DNA of 35,164 bases, from IMG/VR virus record IMGVR_UViG_3300024520_000258, positions 1-35,164 of that record; one strand, given 5' to 3'. Each line of letters opens with the position of its first letter. Position 1 is the first letter of the stretch. The stretch is from a virus. The position numbers were made by a program, and so were the translations under genes. The notes below the pieces were generated by a model, which did no database searches, was not told the DNA's origin, and was given only the letters and a program-made list of their open reading frames with translations. Shown piece after piece: positions 9,555 to 20,833 of the stretch.

Positions 9555-10589
9555 ATGAAAAATTTATTAACTATCCTTAAGTCTTTTTTAGCGATCTTTA
9601 TCTATAAGATGAAGGACGAAACGGGCGCTTTTGAGTTCGGTCAAGTAACTGCGATTACGCATAACGCAATCAAGGAAATCTTAACCGACGGTGTATTTAC
9701 ATCAAGCGCCTATCTAAACAGACTTAAGCAAAAAATGCGCATTGAAGGCGGCGGGAATCAAATCCTTTGCCCTTTAATGACTGTAGACGATACTGGGTCA
9801 ACCGGTAGCTTTTACAAACGTGCGGATGCCCTATCACTACAAGAGTATGACGGGATTTCTGCTTCAAAACACGATTGGAAATATCTACAAGAAACTGTTG
9901 TTATTTACAAGACTGATATTGCGAAAAACGCCGGTGCTGCTGGAGTTTTAAAGCTTGTTGCCTCTAAAGTTTCTCAAGCCAAGGGTGCTATGGGACAAAG
10001 AATGGTAAAGGGTGCTTTATCTGACGGTACTAGTTCAACAGGTGCTTTAGATTCTGATCAGTTTGTTGGTTTACAATCTATAATCGGTGCTACAGGTACC
10101 AGTTATGGTGGTTTTTCTGACTCCGATTTGTCAACATGGCTAGCCGCTGTAGATGATAATTCAGGGACAAACCGTGCCATTACTAAAGCAATTCTTGATG
10201 CAAATTATGATAACGCTTCAGAGAATGGTAAAGGTCAGCCTAGTTTAGGTCTTTGTAATAAAGCAGTTTTTTCAAAGATTAAAGGGCTGTTAACAGCGCA
10301 ACAAAGAACGACTAGAGAAGATTCTATGTCAGGATTTGGTCACGCGGGGCAGGTTTTGGTTTATAATGGGATTGACGTCCTTATTGAAAATCAAATGCCA
10401 GACAACACATTTTTTCATGTAGACGAAGAACACGCTTATCTTGTTGCTCAAAAGGATAACAACATGAGACGTCAATCAATTCAGGATCTGGAAACAGCCG
10501 ATGCATTGCTTGAAAGGGTTTTCTTTTACGGAAATATGGTTGCGCCTGAACGTAAATATCATGGTCGTATTAACGACATAACAGAGTAA
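9555..10589 (+). CDS. Major capsid protein
   Basis: This 344-aa protein directly follows the scaffold, with a strong ribosome site (GGAG) before the ATG. It has the mixed alpha/beta, glycine-containing character of HK97-fold coats, for example TSSAYLNRLKQKMRIEGGG early and FFYGNMVAPERKYHGRI at the end. Oddly, the start with the good ribosome site adds a hydrophobic N-terminus (LLTILKSFLAIFIY). An internal ATG at 9609 would remove it but has no ribosome site. That leader could be a membrane-targeting or cleaved segment. Confidence 0.88.
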   Translation: MKNLLTILKSFLAIFIYKMKDETGAFEFGQVTAITHNAIKEILTDGVFTSSAYLNRLKQKMRIEGGGNQILCPLMTVDDTGSTGSFYKRADALSLQEYDGISASKHDWKYLQETVVIYKTDIAKNAGAAGVLKLVASKVSQAKGAMGQRMVKGALSDGTSSTGALDSDQFVGLQSIIGATGTSYGGFSDSDLSTWLAAVDDNSGTNRAITKAILDANYDNASENGKGQPSLGLCNKAVFSKIKGLLTAQQRTTREDSMSGFGHAGQVLVYNGIDVLIENQMPDNTFFHVDEEHAYLVAQKDNNMRRQSIQDLETADALLERVFFYGNMVAPERKYHGRINDITE

Positions 10590-10598
10590 GGGGGAATT

Positions 10599-11126
10599 AT
10601 GAAAAAGTTATTTTTAGTTTTTATCCTTCTTATCGCCGGTATCGCACTAGCAGATATTGGTCCTGTAGGAAGGTCAGTGCAGCAAGATGCTATTGGCAAC
10701 GTCATGTCGGGCTCGCAAGACAACTGGTATATTTTTGTACAAAATGGTTCCGGTGGCTCTCTAGCTGACGGTACGGTAGTTGTCTTGAAAACAGCTTCCG
10801 ACGATGGTTATAGTGTCACCACTTCAACCACAGCGGGCGCAATTCCACACTGTATTATCGCAAGAGAAACAGCGGCGGCTTGTGCAGATGAGGCTATGTG
10901 TAGATGTCAGACATACGGTAGAAATACTGGCGTTGTTTTTGATATTACAAATGGTCCCGGTGGTTCTGCTGGAGAATGGGCTTTCATTTCGGAAAGTACA
11001 GCGGGATTTATCGAAGCTGAAGTTACGGGTAGTGTAGCATTAACCGACAACCCTGTAGGTGTATTCTTAGACGATACAACCTCGGGAGCCTCGGAAGATG
11101 TAGACCTATTCATAAGATTAAGGTAA
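10599..11126 (+). CDS. Exported small beta-rich protein, candidate head decoration protein
   Basis: This 175-aa protein follows the coat gene by nine bases. It has a clear signal peptide (MKKLFLVFILLIAGIALA, cut before DIG). The mature part alternates Gly, Thr and Ser and carries Cys in ACADEAMCRC. The ADGTVVVLKT pattern and the position after the coat recall capsid decoration/cement proteins (DUF2190-like), which normally have no signal peptide. The cysteines suggest disulfides in an oxidising compartment. The decoration role is a tentative inference. Confidence 0.6.
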   Translation: MKKLFLVFILLIAGIALADIGPVGRSVQQDAIGNVMSGSQDNWYIFVQNGSGGSLADGTVVVLKTASDDGYSVTTSTTAGAIPHCIIARETAAACADEAMCRCQTYGRNTGVVFDITNGPGGSAGEWAFISESTAGFIEAEVTGSVALTDNPVGVFLDDTTSGASEDVDLFIRLR

Positions 11127-11133
11127 AAAATTG

Positions 11134-12255
11134 ATGAAAAGTTGCAACCTCACTTTTCATTATTATTGGGGGGGCGTGTTTATTGCGCTTCCCCTCTTTT
11201 TAAAGGTAGGAATGAATCTTGCCACGCCGAGGTATCCACAAGACTTCTTTTTCTTTTTCGCTACGTCCTTATCCTTAATTCTATTTGGTTTTTATAAACC
11301 TGTAGACTTAAAAATAAAGTTGATAGCAGGCGGATTTTTTGCTCTAGCGTTTTTAAATTCATTTAACTTTACTAGCATGATGTACGTTTATCAGATCATT
11401 CTTATATCTACGTTTTGCCTTGCTTTAGTTCAATTCAATTCACAAAGCTTAACCGATATAGACAAAAAATTAAGTATTTTATTCAACGGGATTGGTGTAA
11501 GCGCTATTATACAGGTGATTTTAGGTATTTTACAAAAGTTCGGTCATAATCCCCATCAACTATTATATTTCTTCTTAGAACTTGGTGGGAAACAGAAGTA
11601 TATTTCAGTGGGCTCTACTGGTACTTTAAATAATCAAAATATCTTTGGTTGTTTCTTGGCCCTTGCTTTACCTGTTTTTTTCAGAAAAAAATGGTGTTAT
11701 TTTATTCCATTTATACTCCTTGGAATATATCTGAGCGCGTCAACTGGTCCATTATTAGCAATAGTAGGGTGTGTCGTAGGTTATACGTTGCACAAAAAGG
11801 TACAAAAATTGTACTATCTTGCGCCGCTTCTTGGTTTAGTGTTTACTTATTGTGTCTATGTTTCGCCATTATCAGAGCAAAAATTTCCAAGGAAAACCAT
11901 TTGGAGAAACATGATTGATAAAACAAAATCGGAACATTATTTAAAGGGTTATGGAACTGCGTTTGTCACTGAAAATAAAAAGTCATGGAAGGGTAGATAT
12001 GTATATCCTGCGGATCAAGCTCATAATGAATATTTAGAGTTATTTATCACTTATGGCGCAGCGGGGGTTATACTTGTAACGGCTTATTTTTATCTCTTCT
12101 ATAATACAGTAAGCCCTATTTTATCCGCGATAACCGCGGGAAGTCTGGTTTCTTCACTGTTTCATTTCAATCTACATATAAGCATAACCGCTTTAATGTT
12201 TTTAGTTTCAATTTCATACAACTATAAGAAAAAGCAGGGGGTGGACCATCACTAG
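11134..12255 (+). CDS. O-antigen ligase/polymerase-like membrane protein
   Basis: This protein of about 373 aa has some ten hydrophobic segments. It carries the Wzy_C/WaaL-family landmarks in order: GTLNNQNIFG followed by a hydrophobic helix (near 163-185), a Ser-rich SASTG turn, a periplasmic loop with RKTIW and KGYGTAF, and AHNEYLELFITYGAAGVIL (near 296-315) with the characteristic His. Family members join or polymerise O-antigen units at the periplasmic face of the inner membrane. It sits inside the head operon, eight bases after the exported protein gene and directly before the adaptor. ATG 11134 is preferred to TTG 11131. It probably changes host surface glycan. Confidence 0.8.
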   Translation: MKSCNLTFHYYWGGVFIALPLFLKVGMNLATPRYPQDFFFFFATSLSLILFGFYKPVDLKIKLIAGGFFALAFLNSFNFTSMMYVYQIILISTFCLALVQFNSQSLTDIDKKLSILFNGIGVSAIIQVILGILQKFGHNPHQLLYFFLELGGKQKYISVGSTGTLNNQNIFGCFLALALPVFFRKKWCYFIPFILLGIYLSASTGPLLAIVGCVVGYTLHKKVQKLYYLAPLLGLVFTYCVYVSPLSEQKFPRKTIWRNMIDKTKSEHYLKGYGTAFVTENKKSWKGRYVYPADQAHNEYLELFITYGAAGVILVTAYFYLFYNTVSPILSAITAGSLVSSLFHFNLHISITALMFLVSISYNYKKKQGVDHH

Positions 12256-12286
12256 ACGCTGGGTACAAAAAACATTTATAGACAGA

Positions 12287-13297
12287 ATGGCCTCCGAACT
12301 CGGAGATACCACTACAACATTTAGGGCGCATTTAATTAGATGGGCAAATGAAATACAAAACGATGTGATACAACTTTTTCCTGCTGAAGAAATGAAGTTT
12401 AAACTCAAAAAGCTTCTTCCTACTGAACAGGATTTTATGTCTTTAACGGTAGAAAAACCTTCCGCGCCAACAGCTACAATTGCTTCAGGTGGTTCTTTAA
12501 CGGATGGTACAGTATATAAGGTATATGCCACTTTTGTTATTTACGACGATGACACTAGAAAATATATTGAAAGTGAATTAGGATCTGCCAGTGCAGAAGC
12601 TACGGGCGACTCTTCAAATAAAACGATAGACGTAACCGCTATTCCAACTATGAGTGGAGACACCGATGTAAATCCTAAGACTATTTACAGAAATATTTAT
12701 GTCGCAGCAAAAGCCTCTGGGGAGTCAAACTTTGCAGAACCATTTTTTAGCTCACAAATAACGGACAATGTAAGCACTACGGTTTCAATAACAAGCGCAC
12801 CGAGTTCTACTCAAACGCCTCCAAGTTTCAGTGAAGTTGACCAGGTAGCCTCTGACCACATGTTTATGCAGTCCGGCAATTGGTGGTTGCAACATGTTGG
12901 GAGTAATAAACTCACTAGGTTTTCAACTAATCCTGGTACTTCTGAAACGCCAAGCGCATTTGATTTTTATGGGCTTGACGGTATCAGATTATTTCCTCCG
13001 CTTGCAAGCAGTTCAAGTATAGCGCAGAGAACTTTACAATATACGGTACATCGTAGACCCCATGAAATCTTTTATGAATTAGATAGAGAAATAGACCTCC
13101 CTATTAGCTGCGAACAAGCTTTAGTCAAAGGTGTTCTATGGAAGGGCTATGAATTCAGAGATAGAGCAGGAAAAGAGTCAAAACAAATTAACTATGAACA
13201 AGAAAAAATAAGGCTTGAAAGAATATTTTCAAGGCAAAAGGGATCACCACAACCTATCCGAGATGTTAACGGCGGGTTTGATGGGTTTTCAATATAA
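12287..13297 (+). CDS. Head-tail adaptor (P22 gp4-like) with inserted beta-sandwich
   Basis: The N-terminal 50 residues (RAHLIRWANEIQNDV and following) and the C-terminal helical part (LPISCEQALVKGVLWKGYEF, then ERIFSRQKG) look like the podovirus adaptor that plugs the portal. An Ig/fibronectin-like domain fills residues 60-187. Its sequence parallels a domain in the next gene. There is no ribosome site before ATG 12287. The frame stays open upstream as ITRRWVQKTFIDR, and AGGGGG (12236-12241) lies six bases before an ATC at 12248, so the true start may be non-canonical and earlier. Confidence 0.75.
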   Translation: MASELGDTTTTFRAHLIRWANEIQNDVIQLFPAEEMKFKLKKLLPTEQDFMSLTVEKPSAPTATIASGGSLTDGTVYKVYATFVIYDDDTRKYIESELGSASAEATGDSSNKTIDVTAIPTMSGDTDVNPKTIYRNIYVAAKASGESNFAEPFFSSQITDNVSTTVSITSAPSSTQTPPSFSEVDQVASDHMFMQSGNWWLQHVGSNKLTRFSTNPGTSETPSAFDFYGLDGIRLFPPLASSSSIAQRTLQYTVHRRPHEIFYELDREIDLPISCEQALVKGVLWKGYEFRDRAGKESKQINYEQEKIRLERIFSRQKGSPQPIRDVNGGFDGFSI

Positions 13298-13305
13298 GGG
13301 ATTAG

Positions 13306-15255
13306 ATGCCACAGAGTAAAAGTCGCTTGATAAAATGGAAGTTTCTCGATATGGCAGTGAGTTATAAACCACTTATACAAGACCGTATGGCCGATGCCTT
13401 AAATGTGGTAACTAACCAGAAGATTTTAGAGACTCGTCCAGGTACTTCAAGATATAACGCAACAGCAATCAACGCTAACGAGATCAATTCAATCACTTAT
13501 TTTAAAAATAATGCTGGAACTATCCACGTATTGGCAAAAGTCCAGCAAGATATGTTTCTCGTCCCTACAACAGGAAGTGCTACGCATTTAGCTGGTAGTT
13601 TTGAGCTAGATGTAGATGCATTAGACGAAACTATACTAGACGAATCAGGAGCAGGGTTGACCGCCGCTGCAAAACATAGAGGCGTAACATTCCGTGGACG
13701 GCATATTGTTGCCGTTAAAACTAACGGTCTATTTACCTATGACGGGACCACATGGAGTCAATTAGGGCAGGCCATACCCGGGGCGCCAACAGTGGCAGCT
13801 AGTGGGTCAGGAAATACATTATCAGCTTCAGACTATAAAGTAGCTTATACGTTTTATGACTCAACAAACGGCTTTGAAACAAACCAAGGCACGGCAAGCA
13901 CAACGGTCACAGTATCCTCTGGCGAACAGATAGATGTTTCTGCAATTTCAACAAGTGCAGATAATGGGAATATTGATAAAGTTAGAATCTATATAAAAGA
14001 CGTAACAGCGGGAAGTGATTTCCTTTTTTGGGCTGAAATAGATTTAACAGACGGTTCCGACACAATAGATTCAGATACAACTTCAACAAGTGTACCGCCG
14101 ACTAAAAACGCCCCGCCAAAGTCTGGGGGAGCGCAATTTCTAACAATGTTTGGAAATAAACTTGCTTATTCGGGTAACACGACATTTCCAAGTGACGTAT
14201 TTCTTGGCACGGCTGACATACCCGATGCTGTAGATGACTCTAGTACGGGGGTAATACTTTTTGCAAGCGGACAAGGGCCTGTAACGGGCTTAGGAACGGG
14301 ATTTTATAGTGGTGATCAAAGCGCAAAAGTTCCATTTCTATGTATATTTAAGAGAACTTCGATTGAGGTTTATGACACTACAAACGGAATTTCTACTATT
14401 AGTAGTGATGTCGGGGCTCCATCTGGGGATACGATCCGGGAAATCAACGGGGCGGTGTTTTTCCAATCAACTATTGGTTGGCACGTTATAGTCAATGGGA
14501 GATTACAAACCGATAAAAATAGCGATGCATATAACTTAGGCGAAGGTGATATTGATGATATATTTACCAGGACAGGATTTACCCACAGTATTTCTAAGGG
14601 TCAATTGATAAATGCTTTTTCTGTTTATTATCCGACCTTAAACCAGTATATGACGTTTAACCCCTTAGCGGGAAGCACACAATCTTTTAGATCCAACAAC
14701 TATGAACTAAATATATCGGGGTTTCGTCCTTATAAATTTCCTCTTGAAATATTGGACGCCACACTAGCTGAAAATTCTGACGGCGAGGACATTGTTTTAT
14801 TTGCTACAGAAGATGGTTTTATAATGCAACATTCGATTGCAGAAAGTCGAAGTGATGCATTGGCCGACAATACTACTCGGGCAATAGAAACATTTTTCCA
14901 ATTATACTGGTTGAATGGTGAAGATATGGACGCCACATATAATTATGGTAGAGTTATATTTAGCGCATTAGAACAGGACACGGCAGTAGAAGCGAGATAT
15001 TTTCTCGATTACAAAACAGCAGAGCCAGTATCACAGGACTTTGATTTTAGCGGAACATTAGCGGGATTTCAGCTTGATGTTTCAAAATTAGATGAGGGTG
15101 TACTTTTTGACGGCAGGACAATTATTACATTTCAAGGCAACGTGGACAAAACAGCGAAAGCGTTGTTGTTGGGGTTTTATCAGAATACAAGCGGAACGAA
15201 TATAAATATGCTGGAAGGAATGATTTCTTTCAGTAAGAACGGAACTTTTAGCTAA
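13306..15255 (+). CDS. Tail hub/stabilisation protein (P22 gp10-like)
   Basis: This 649-aa protein occupies the gene 10 position, downstream of the adaptor. It opens with YKPLIQDRMADALNVV, then repeated beta strands as in the propeller-like hub that closes the portal channel. Residues 159-272 form an inserted beta-sandwich (YKVAYTFYD, IDVSAIST, VRIYIKD) that matches the insertion in the adaptor protein. Later parts contain FKRTSIEVYDTTNG and GAVFFQSTIGW typical of podovirus hub proteins. It is longer than P22 gp10 mainly because of the insertion and a C-terminal extension. Confidence 0.7.
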   Translation: MPQSKSRLIKWKFLDMAVSYKPLIQDRMADALNVVTNQKILETRPGTSRYNATAINANEINSITYFKNNAGTIHVLAKVQQDMFLVPTTGSATHLAGSFELDVDALDETILDESGAGLTAAAKHRGVTFRGRHIVAVKTNGLFTYDGTTWSQLGQAIPGAPTVAASGSGNTLSASDYKVAYTFYDSTNGFETNQGTASTTVTVSSGEQIDVSAISTSADNGNIDKVRIYIKDVTAGSDFLFWAEIDLTDGSDTIDSDTTSTSVPPTKNAPPKSGGAQFLTMFGNKLAYSGNTTFPSDVFLGTADIPDAVDDSSTGVILFASGQGPVTGLGTGFYSGDQSAKVPFLCIFKRTSIEVYDTTNGISTISSDVGAPSGDTIREINGAVFFQSTIGWHVIVNGRLQTDKNSDAYNLGEGDIDDIFTRTGFTHSISKGQLINAFSVYYPTLNQYMTFNPLAGSTQSFRSNNYELNISGFRPYKFPLEILDATLAENSDGEDIVLFATEDGFIMQHSIAESRSDALADNTTRAIETFFQLYWLNGEDMDATYNYGRVIFSALEQDTAVEARYFLDYKTAEPVSQDFDFSGTLAGFQLDVSKLDEGVLFDGRTIITFQGNVDKTAKALLLGFYQNTSGTNINMLEGMISFSKNGTFS

Positions 15256-15267
15256 AAGGGATAAAAA

Positions 15268-16287
15268 ATGAAAACTTTGTTACTAATTTTTTTACTAATT
15301 GCTACACAAATTAGTAGCAATGTTTATGCAGGAACGTGTACAAGTGACTCGTTCACTTCAAATTCAGCAAACAGTATTTTAACATCAACCAAATACAACT
15401 CGGATCATTCGACAATCTACGACAGATTAGCGGGTGCATTTGATGGTGGTTGTATCACAGATGGGACAGTAGAGGACGGCGGTCTTAATACCACGGACTT
15501 CGCGGTTATGTTTAACGCCATGAAAGAAGGGTGCGAGATAACCAAGTCTGACGATAGCACCGTGTCGATTAATAGATGCATGCTTTCAGTCAATGGGAAT
15601 TTCGTTAAGACAACTACTGCGACAACCGTTGCCATGGGTTGTGCAACTAATTGTGATGCGGAAGCGGCTTCAACTGATTATTATGTTTTTGCGATAACTG
15701 GAAGCACAGGGACTACACTTACATTAGGCTTAAAGACAGGCGCACCAAACGGCGATAGTTATGACGGGTCCGGAAACCGTGTCCTGGGAATTGTCACTAA
15801 TGACGGTAGCAGTAACGTATCGACTCCCAGTATCAGACAATGGAAGCAAGGTGGTTTAGAGGTCGGTTGGTCCGCTCCTGCTTCATATAAACCAGTATGG
15901 ACAGGTTTCGGAACGGTAACAGATGGAAACGTTAATTGTGACTGGCATCGAGAAAACTCAGACTTAATTGTAAAATGCGATGCGACCGTAGGGACATCAA
16001 CAGCTACCGAAGCACAAGTGACTCTACCGAGCGGATTAGTATCAATATCAGCAGGGCCCACAAATCAAATCGTTGGTGTCCACTCACAGACAGAAAGTAG
16101 TGTCAATGATCATGGTGGTATTGTTATGGTTGAAGCTGGAAAATCTTATTTAATTTTTAGTAATACAAAAACTTGGGGTACATCTGGCGGACATATACCT
16201 TTGTCTGGCGCAAACGGAAATGTAGTTGTAGGCGCAGGATTAAGATTCAATTTTAAAGCAACTATTCCTATAGAAGGATGGAGGTAA
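15268..16287 (+). CDS. Candidate tail fibre/needle protein with signal peptide
   Basis: In this 339-aa protein the first 22 residues are a signal peptide (MKTLLLIFLLIATQISSNVYA, cut before GTCTS). Next comes a pattern common at the N-terminus of phage fibres (KYNSDHSTIYDRLAGAF), then Thr/Ser/Gly-rich beta sequence with several Cys pairs. It is located where P22 encodes its tail needle. Signal peptides are unusual for fibres assembled in the cytoplasm. It could be an exported fibre, a secreted receptor mask or a mislocalised-looking virion protein. Function is not certain. Confidence 0.6.
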   Translation: MKTLLLIFLLIATQISSNVYAGTCTSDSFTSNSANSILTSTKYNSDHSTIYDRLAGAFDGGCITDGTVEDGGLNTTDFAVMFNAMKEGCEITKSDDSTVSINRCMLSVNGNFVKTTTATTVAMGCATNCDAEAASTDYYVFAITGSTGTTLTLGLKTGAPNGDSYDGSGNRVLGIVTNDGSSNVSTPSIRQWKQGGLEVGWSAPASYKPVWTGFGTVTDGNVNCDWHRENSDLIVKCDATVGTSTATEAQVTLPSGLVSISAGPTNQIVGVHSQTESSVNDHGGIVMVEAGKSYLIFSNTKTWGTSGGHIPLSGANGNVVVGAGLRFNFKATIPIEGWR

Positions 16288-16289
16288 TA

Positions 16290-16625
16290 ATGAAATATTT
16301 ACTAATTTTTCTAATCAGTTTTAATGTTTATGCGCAAGAGAAGACTTATAAAATACAGGTTTTTAGAAACTCTGATAACCAACAGCTTTATGGCCTCTAT
16401 GCAAAAGAACATAAAAAAGCGCAGAGAGTTAAAGAGGCTCAAAAGCTTCACATAGGCGGCGAAACCCGCATGATAGTTGAGGATATTACGCAACAGTTAG
16501 CGGACGAGAAACAGTCTCACCTTGATGCGATAGAAGAGAGAAAATCTTTTAAAGTATTAGTTAATTCAGTGAGTGATCCAATAGTAAGAAAGATTCTTAA
16601 AAGAATAGTGAAAGATTTTTATTAA
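16290..16625 (+). CDS. Small exported protein in the tail gene cluster
   Basis: The start is ATG 16290, preceded by GGAGG from the end of the upstream gene, rather than ATG 16278. The 111-aa product has a short signal peptide (MKYLLIFLISFNVYA, cut before QEKTY), a small beta region and a charged helix (about 60-95). It lies between the fibre-like gene and the ejection proteins, where P22 has gene 14. It is the third exported product in this operon. No family is recognised. Confidence 0.6.
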   Translation: MKYLLIFLISFNVYAQEKTYKIQVFRNSDNQQLYGLYAKEHKKAQRVKEAQKLHIGGETRMIVEDITQQLADEKQSHLDAIEERKSFKVLVNSVSDPIVRKILKRIVKDFY

Positions 16626-20176: not shown

Positions 20177-20423
20177 TCTATCATTTTCAAGCGTGGGCAA
20201 AAAATTAGGGCTCATAGGCTTTTTACTCGCTGCCGTAAGTTGCTTAACAGCGGTTGCCACAAGTGCGTTTAAAGATAAAGCGCATAATACTGATAAATTT
20301 ATCGAGAGAATCACCCGGGTTGAAGATAAAGAGTCGGAGAATAGGCGTAATATAGGCAAAATCGATAAAAAATTAGAAGCTATTGATAAGAAACTCGATA
20401 TAGTAATATTCAAATTGAAATGA
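20157..20423 (+). CDS. Membrane protein with coiled coil, lysis-linked
   Basis: The GTG start at 20157 is preceded by AAGGAAAGG inside the previous gene. The 88-aa product has one hydrophobic helix (about 15-36, LGLIGFLLAAVSCLTAVATS) and then a charged coiled coil (46-88). It overlaps the endolysin start by an ATGA. The layout suits an accessory holin or an inner-membrane spanin component. Assignment to lysis is by neighbourhood. Confidence 0.6.
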   Translation: MAKETISLSFSSVGKKLGLIGFLLAAVSCLTAVATSAFKDKAHNTDKFIERITRVEDKESENRRNIGKIDKKLEAIDKKLDIVIFKLK

Positions 20424-20833
20424 AAAAATATTATGATATAAAAGAACCTGACGTTAATCTCAAGGAGTTACCTTTTTTGCAATGGCCATTAGCTATAGTT
20501 TTGCATTATATAATCGGGTATGCCGATATGCATAGCCTTCCAGTTAAAATAACGTCTATAAGTGAAAAAATTGCTAGAAGAAAAAGCCGTAGTCATGACG
20601 AATTTCGTGCCGTAGATATTGCTACGCGTTTATGGTCTGACGAGCATTTAAGTACGCTTAAAAGGAGAGTGAACGCGATATTTTACAATTGGGGGACAGG
20701 TCCAGTGAAGGGTAAAAAGCAGGTTTTTGTTTGGGAGCCGCCCGACCATTTAAATCACATACATTTGCAGGTGCGCCGCAATATAAAGATTGACGATATT
20801 GGAAGCAGAAAGATTTTCAACTTAAACAAATGA
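20420..20833 (+). CDS. Endolysin-like M15 family peptidase
   Basis: This 137-aa protein contains the zinc ligands of M15/VanY-type peptidases. SHDEFRAVD holds His 59 and Asp 66, and NHIH holds His 113 and His 115. Members cut the peptide part of peptidoglycan, often the L-Ala-D-Glu bond in phage endolysins. It is somewhat short and has no signal peptide, so a holin would be needed for release. It is coupled to the upstream membrane protein by ATGA. A hydrolase domain without a cell-wall-binding module fits a Gram-negative host. Confidence 0.85.
   Translation: MKKYYDIKEPDVNLKELPFLQWPLAIVLHYIIGYADMHSLPVKITSISEKIARRKSRSHDEFRAVDIATRLWSDEHLSTLKRRVNAIFYNWGTGPVKGKKQVFVWEPPDHLNHIHLQVRRNIKIDDIGSRKIFNLNK

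Follow-up and report, generated by a model that had tools for sequence, protein, structure and literature searches.

Here we describe a gene of the Wzy_C family (hereafter wzy) that lies within the capsid operon of an uncultured virus, directly downstream of a gene for a putatively exported protein with a predicted capsid-decoration fold. The record, analysed over its whole 35,164 bases (the window), belongs to a phage group known from uncultured virus sequences only, and its capsid module is nearest to those of Mx8-like phages. Judged from profile and predicted structure, the wzy product is a polytopic membrane protein and a putative glycan transferase. We favour a role in protein O-glycosylation over one in LPS modification, and we give an even chance to the following model, taken as a whole. 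The wzy product would be an inner-membrane protein O-oligosaccharyltransferase glycosylating the neighbouring decoration protein, which would be exported by Sec and oxidised in the periplasm. The enzyme would take a host glycan from undecaprenyl pyrophosphate and attach it to the decoration protein; the latter would join filled heads when the inner membrane opens at lysis, and virions would leave bearing host-type sugars. A partial terminator in the start of wzy would let capsid and decoration proteins outnumber the enzyme and the products of later genes.

For the virion proteins of tailed phages, folding and assembly are assumed to be cytoplasmic, a picture that group-wide signal peptides and paired cysteines on decoration and fibre proteins challenge. 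A broader proposal is possible, and we advance it tentatively: in several unrelated groups of tailed phages, part of the virion would be built in a second compartment. Exposed proteins (decoration, fibre) would be exported by Sec, then disulfide-bonded and O-glycosylated in the periplasm with host glycans by a phage Wzy_C enzyme; their addition to heads at lysis would yield virions coated in host glycans. If true, a dedicated glycan-transfer gene would be the phages' own route to protein glycosylation, with a bearing on adsorption, masking and glycoengineering. We found no earlier description of such a pairing in the open-licence literature.

The Wzy_C-family gene and its signal-peptide neighbour

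The wzy ORF is intact and encodes 373 amino acids, from an ATG at 11134 to a stop codon ending at 12255 on the plus strand (the TTG at 11131 is another possible start). An earlier note on this DNA had called it an O-antigen ligase/polymerase-like gene from three motifs (GTLNNQNIFG, RKTIW and AHNEYLELF), all of which are present in the translation, and had proposed profile and structure comparisons, both of which bear the assignment out. The product matches Pfam Wzy_C (PF04932) with an E-value of 1e-9 and 38.8 bits, above the gathering cut-off of 31.7, and is thus a member of the family. An AlphaFold model built from 34 phage relatives (pLDDT 87, pTM 0.88) has a WaaL-like polytopic fold, its single significant PDB match being WaaL (7tpg; E 5.7e-5, TM 0.59). 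The 34 relatives are 17–33% identical to the window protein, and 30 of them match the Pfam Wzy_C profile at E 0.01; R253 and H297 are invariant among them and W257 nearly so. R253 and H297, equated by motif order only, would be R288 and H338 of WaaL, and the corresponding Arg matters for WaaL function (PMC3643930). The gene is not filed as PglL because the PglL-specific motifs PglL_A and PglL_B were found in none of the 34 wzy-family members; PilO is also without them (PMC3643930). Wzy_C sequence alone cannot separate ligases, polymerases and protein glycosyltransferases (OTases). No match to the wzy product was found among PDB sequences (phmmer), no relative among 50,697 phage records (tblastn) and only insignificant matches among NCBIfam profiles; single-protein scans of IMG/VR with the window wzy or capsid protein gave no match, and relatives had to be sought with a DNA motif pattern and with alignments. 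A recent origin of wzy as a moron was considered and rejected, as its GC3 (0.332) matches the operon (about 0.29–0.34 in neighbouring genes) and its place is conserved.

Features of the window's structural operon, with the evidence for each
Feature	Positions	Strand	Evidence
Major capsid protein, SU10/Mx8-like	9555..10589	+	SU10_MCP 1.4e-8; PHROG major head protein 2.4e-33
Capsid-decoration-fold protein, exported precursor, putative glycan acceptor	10599..11126	+	Model, PDB matches, co-occurrence with wzy
Signal peptide MKKLFLVFILLIAGIALA of decoration protein, putative cut before D19	10599..10652	+	n-, h- and c-regions, ALA site
wzy, Wzy_C-family polytopic membrane protein (putative)	11134..12255	+	Pfam, AlphaFold model, GC3
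Intrinsic-terminator-like hairpin and U-tract in wzy coding sequence, first codons	11168..11203	+	Folding energy, codon test
R253...W257 (RKTIW), invariant Arg in periplasmic loop	11890..11904	+	Alignment of 34 relatives
H297-N-E-Y-L-E302 motif, putative catalytic His	12022..12039	+	H297 invariant; corresponds by motif to H338 of E. coli WaaL
Head-tail adaptor, by gene order	12287..13297	+	Beside wzy in relatives; PHROG adaptor Ad4 only E 0.18
Head closure/stabilisation protein, unbiased probe	13306..15255	+	PHROG head closure Hc3 2e-6
Fibre-like protein with signal peptide (MKTLLLIFLLIATQISSNVYA), conserved cysteines	15268..16287	+	Pfam mtd_2nd E 2.7e-4, below cut-off

The decoration protein begins with a textbook Sec signal peptide (MKKLFLVFILLIAGIALA-DIG), similar in all homologues aligned, and its gene is preceded by a Shine–Dalgarno-like AAGGGGGA. 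Here and below, signal-peptide calls come from a heuristic and from inspection by eye; this one had been overlooked in the earlier note. Cysteines are plentiful in the mature part (2.66 per 100 residues; capsid protein 0.62, adaptor 0.33, scaffold 0.00) and even in number in the decoration proteins of 23 of 24 lineages, as periplasmic disulfide bonding would predict. The best PDB matches of the predicted structure (pLDDT 85.5) are decoration or capsid-stabilising proteins of phages Pam3, XM1, TW1, T1 and Sf11 (8hdt, E 6e-5). The protein thus has the beta fold of cement proteins but, with its signal peptide, departs from their cytoplasmic form. It occupies the slot held in Mx8 and Mx9 by decoration proteins devoid of a signal peptide; a profile comparison with Mx8 p49 gave no significant match, so it is fold and position that support this link. 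As a candidate acceptor site, a conserved Ser/Thr close to the C-terminus was considered but dropped, as Mx8 p49 has a similar turn.

The place of wzy is conserved in the window's phage group. The earlier note had put the gene among head genes, and the neighbours are as claimed: portal (P22_portal, E 1e-14), major capsid and head closure proteins by profile, the adaptor mainly by gene order. A DNA pattern for HNEYLE-x5-G-x2-G retrieved 40 IMG/VR contigs, of which 38 have a Wzy_C-like ORF; in 11 contigs found by the pattern, gene order around wzy matches the window's over the length that each contig covers. Sampling blind to wzy, by a search with the head-closure protein and with near-identical loci merged, gave 26 lineages with an intact capsid-to-adaptor interval. 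Twenty-four carry both the decoration gene and wzy, two (L086 and L089) carry neither and none carries one alone; the decoration gene is found in every lineage with wzy. A search for related genes at the same place had been proposed in the earlier note. In all 24, wzy lies between the decoration and adaptor genes of a co-directional structural operon, rather than in a separate lysogenic conversion cluster, which agrees with the expectation that it should be a late gene. L086 and L089 group in the tree with L088, which has both genes, so decoration gene and wzy appear to have been gained or lost together. The head-closure probe had no match in bacterial genomes. A conserved ORF of 81–93 amino acids lies near wzy and the adaptor gene in many relatives (among them L045 3730-4008, L026 1961-2230 and L029 2724-2996) but is absent from the window; in L084 its place is taken by a 110-amino-acid ORF that starts with a signal peptide.

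Pairing of wzy with signal-peptide genes across phage groups

The wzy-bearing phages span several capsid families (the SU10/Mx8 type of the window, PHROG 3437 and PHROG 371). Across 45 wzy clusters defined at 50% identity, the heuristic called a signal peptide for the gene directly upstream in 38 of 43; one call was false, the neighbour being itself a second wzy, which leaves about 37 of 43. The background rate of signal-peptide genes in the same contigs is 19%. In one viral contig (L057, 9842-12063), two tandem Wzy_C-like genes directly follow an ORF of 569 codons whose product has a signal peptide.

A second podovirus group (PHROG 3437) was sampled by its capsid protein alone. In all 15 of its clusters with wzy, the gene directly upstream encodes a signal-peptide protein (in one case judged by eye); a further 6–7 clusters encode the exported protein but no wzy, and about 19 lack both (Fisher p 2.7e-6, computed ignoring relatedness). 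Because every wzy is paired while the exported protein also occurs by itself, wzy depends on the exported protein and not vice versa in this group. On the PHROG 3437 tree the labels are clustered, with three changes for the exported protein and five for wzy; independent pairs on the tree number two concordant and none discordant, too few for significance alone. The capsid probe of this group matched five MAG contigs, with a detectable wzy in none, and tblastn of four of its enzymes against the 50,697 phage records gave no match.

Genes for protein O-oligosaccharyltransferases adjoin those of their exported substrates, as PilO does with pilin and PglL with ComP (Schulz 2013, PMC3643930); the baylyi PglL, encoded beside comP, was studied as a test case (PMC3643930). 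The same adjacency to an exported protein of acceptor type is seen for wzy, and by this logic (PMC3643930) the decoration protein would be the likeliest, putative acceptor of the glycan. It could instead be a partner or regulator of the enzyme and not its substrate. For the earlier interpretation the consequences are mixed. A Wzy_C/WaaL-type gene in the capsid operon stands, whereas the purpose proposed for it, alteration of LPS or surface glycan, is disfavoured: across several unrelated capsid families the constant partner of wzy is an adjacent exported protein, the pattern of protein O-oligosaccharyltransferases and their substrates (PMC3643930).

Known systems and alternative readings

PglL, PilO/TfpO and PglS, members of the Wzy_C superfamily, share with wzy the Wzy_C domain, the conserved Arg and His and a co-oriented gene adjoining an exported protein (PMC3643930). 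By contrast, wzy is phage-encoded in a capsid operon, has a decoration-fold partner rather than a pilin and is without PglL_A/PglL_B motifs. The predicted fold and the conserved Arg and His are equally those of WaaL, which leaves room for a late O-antigen ligase or polymerase that alters LPS or surface glycan in the dying cell and so keeps progeny from sticking to debris or re-infecting, with the exported neighbour inhibiting or helping a host polymerase as Iap does for D3 Wzy-beta. Phage-borne Wzy_C proteins have precedents in D3 Wzy-beta and in VarioGold p25, which lies beside the signal-peptide protein p26 in a presumed conversion cluster (PMC9658991), and the late operon position is compatible with such a role. 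We nevertheless regard it as rather unlikely. The neighbour's fold is that of a capsid decoration protein and not of a small inhibitor, an exported head-region protein co-occurs with wzy in several capsid families, and the scanned window genes revealed no other glycan gene. Relative to WaaL, wzy is 13% identical, has no LPS genes found nearby and has an exported head-region protein as its constant partner; the genes of D3 and VarioGold belong to conversion (moron) clusters away from the structural operon, and their action is presumed to take place in lysogens.

The order portal, scaffold, capsid, decoration, adaptor, closure is shared with Myxococcus phage Mx8 and Stenotrophomonas phage BUCT555, whose decoration proteins differ in having no signal peptide and whose modules have no Wzy_C gene. 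No wzy was found in the capsid–adaptor interval of Mx8, Mx9, BUCT555 and similar phages, and in BUCT555 this interval holds a holin and an endolysin. Phages are well known to export proteins that block receptors, and two or three structural-operon proteins of the window have signal peptides; the exported decoration- and fibre-like proteins might remain at the surface of the host, glycosylated or not, and prevent adsorption, with the Wzy_C enzyme modifying either them or the receptor glycan. Such superinfection exclusion or receptor masking seems distinctly improbable to us, given that the decoration protein has a capsid cement fold and sits in the Mx8/Mx9 decoration slot, and that L086 and L089, though without wzy, have a fibre-like protein that retains the signal peptide. 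That Mx8, Mx9, BUCT555, L086 and L089 all manage without the gene might also be expected if wzy had entered an ancestor's operon once and been tolerated as a neutral passenger with no virion or surface role. This we consider very hard to credit, since an Arg and a His are invariant at 17–33% identity to the window protein, 24 of 26 lineages have the gene at one and the same place and the pairing recurs in unrelated phages.

A hairpin in the start of wzy and other genes of the operon

The first codons of wzy contain a terminator-like hairpin (−18.5 kcal/mol, z −3.1 in the window). Hairpins of at least 12 kcal/mol followed by a U-tract occur at the start of wzy in 17 of 24 lineages, and the 126 starts sampled from five neighbouring genes contain none. 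A formal covariation analysis failed, as differing loop lengths misalign the hairpins, and a synonymous-codon test was used in its place: recoding destroys the hairpins (native mean −12.3 against −4.6 kcal/mol recoded; combined p 2e-15), which indicates that synonymous codon choice maintains them. In the two wzy-less lineages, L086 and L089, a terminator-like hairpin is present between the capsid and adaptor genes; no hairpin was found in the enzyme genes of the second group. In T7, the terminator T-phi lies just after the capsid gene and would step down later genes. The window hairpin is likewise terminator-like and just after the capsid genes, but differs in being part of a coding sequence, that of the second gene after capsid, where synonymous codons maintain it. 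It is probably a step-down terminator embedded in wzy, in which case wzy and the genes beyond it may be expressed at a lower level than capsid and decoration genes, albeit within the same late operon. The conserved WG...LP peptide near the wzy N-terminus may partly reflect the hairpin.

The fibre-like protein has four cysteines (C24, C62, C89 and C104) that are invariant in seven homologues, and its signal peptide is kept in both L086 and L089. A small protein encoded after it (16278-16625) also starts with a signal peptide. Further downstream, 20420-20833 encodes a candidate endolysin with an M15-type peptidase pattern seen by eye (SHDEFRAVD...HIHLQ); Pfam and PHROG gave no match to it. The adaptor frame is open upstream of the ATG at 12287, where window positions 12249-12287 read ITRRWVQKTFIDRM, and the N-termini of relatives (MTRRWNGKALIDEL) are alike, which suggests that translation begins at a non-standard codon (ATC) overlapping the stop codon of wzy. 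Finally, the major capsid protein is extended at its N-terminus by an additional hydrophobic or amphipathic stretch (MKNLLTILKSFLAIFIYKMKDETGAF; window 9555-9630; L049 8381-; L050 8371-), pointing to a possible membrane-associated assembly of heads. Extensions of this type are missing in more distant relatives and occur on the capsid proteins of the nearest ones, as well as on the scaffolds of L049 and L050.
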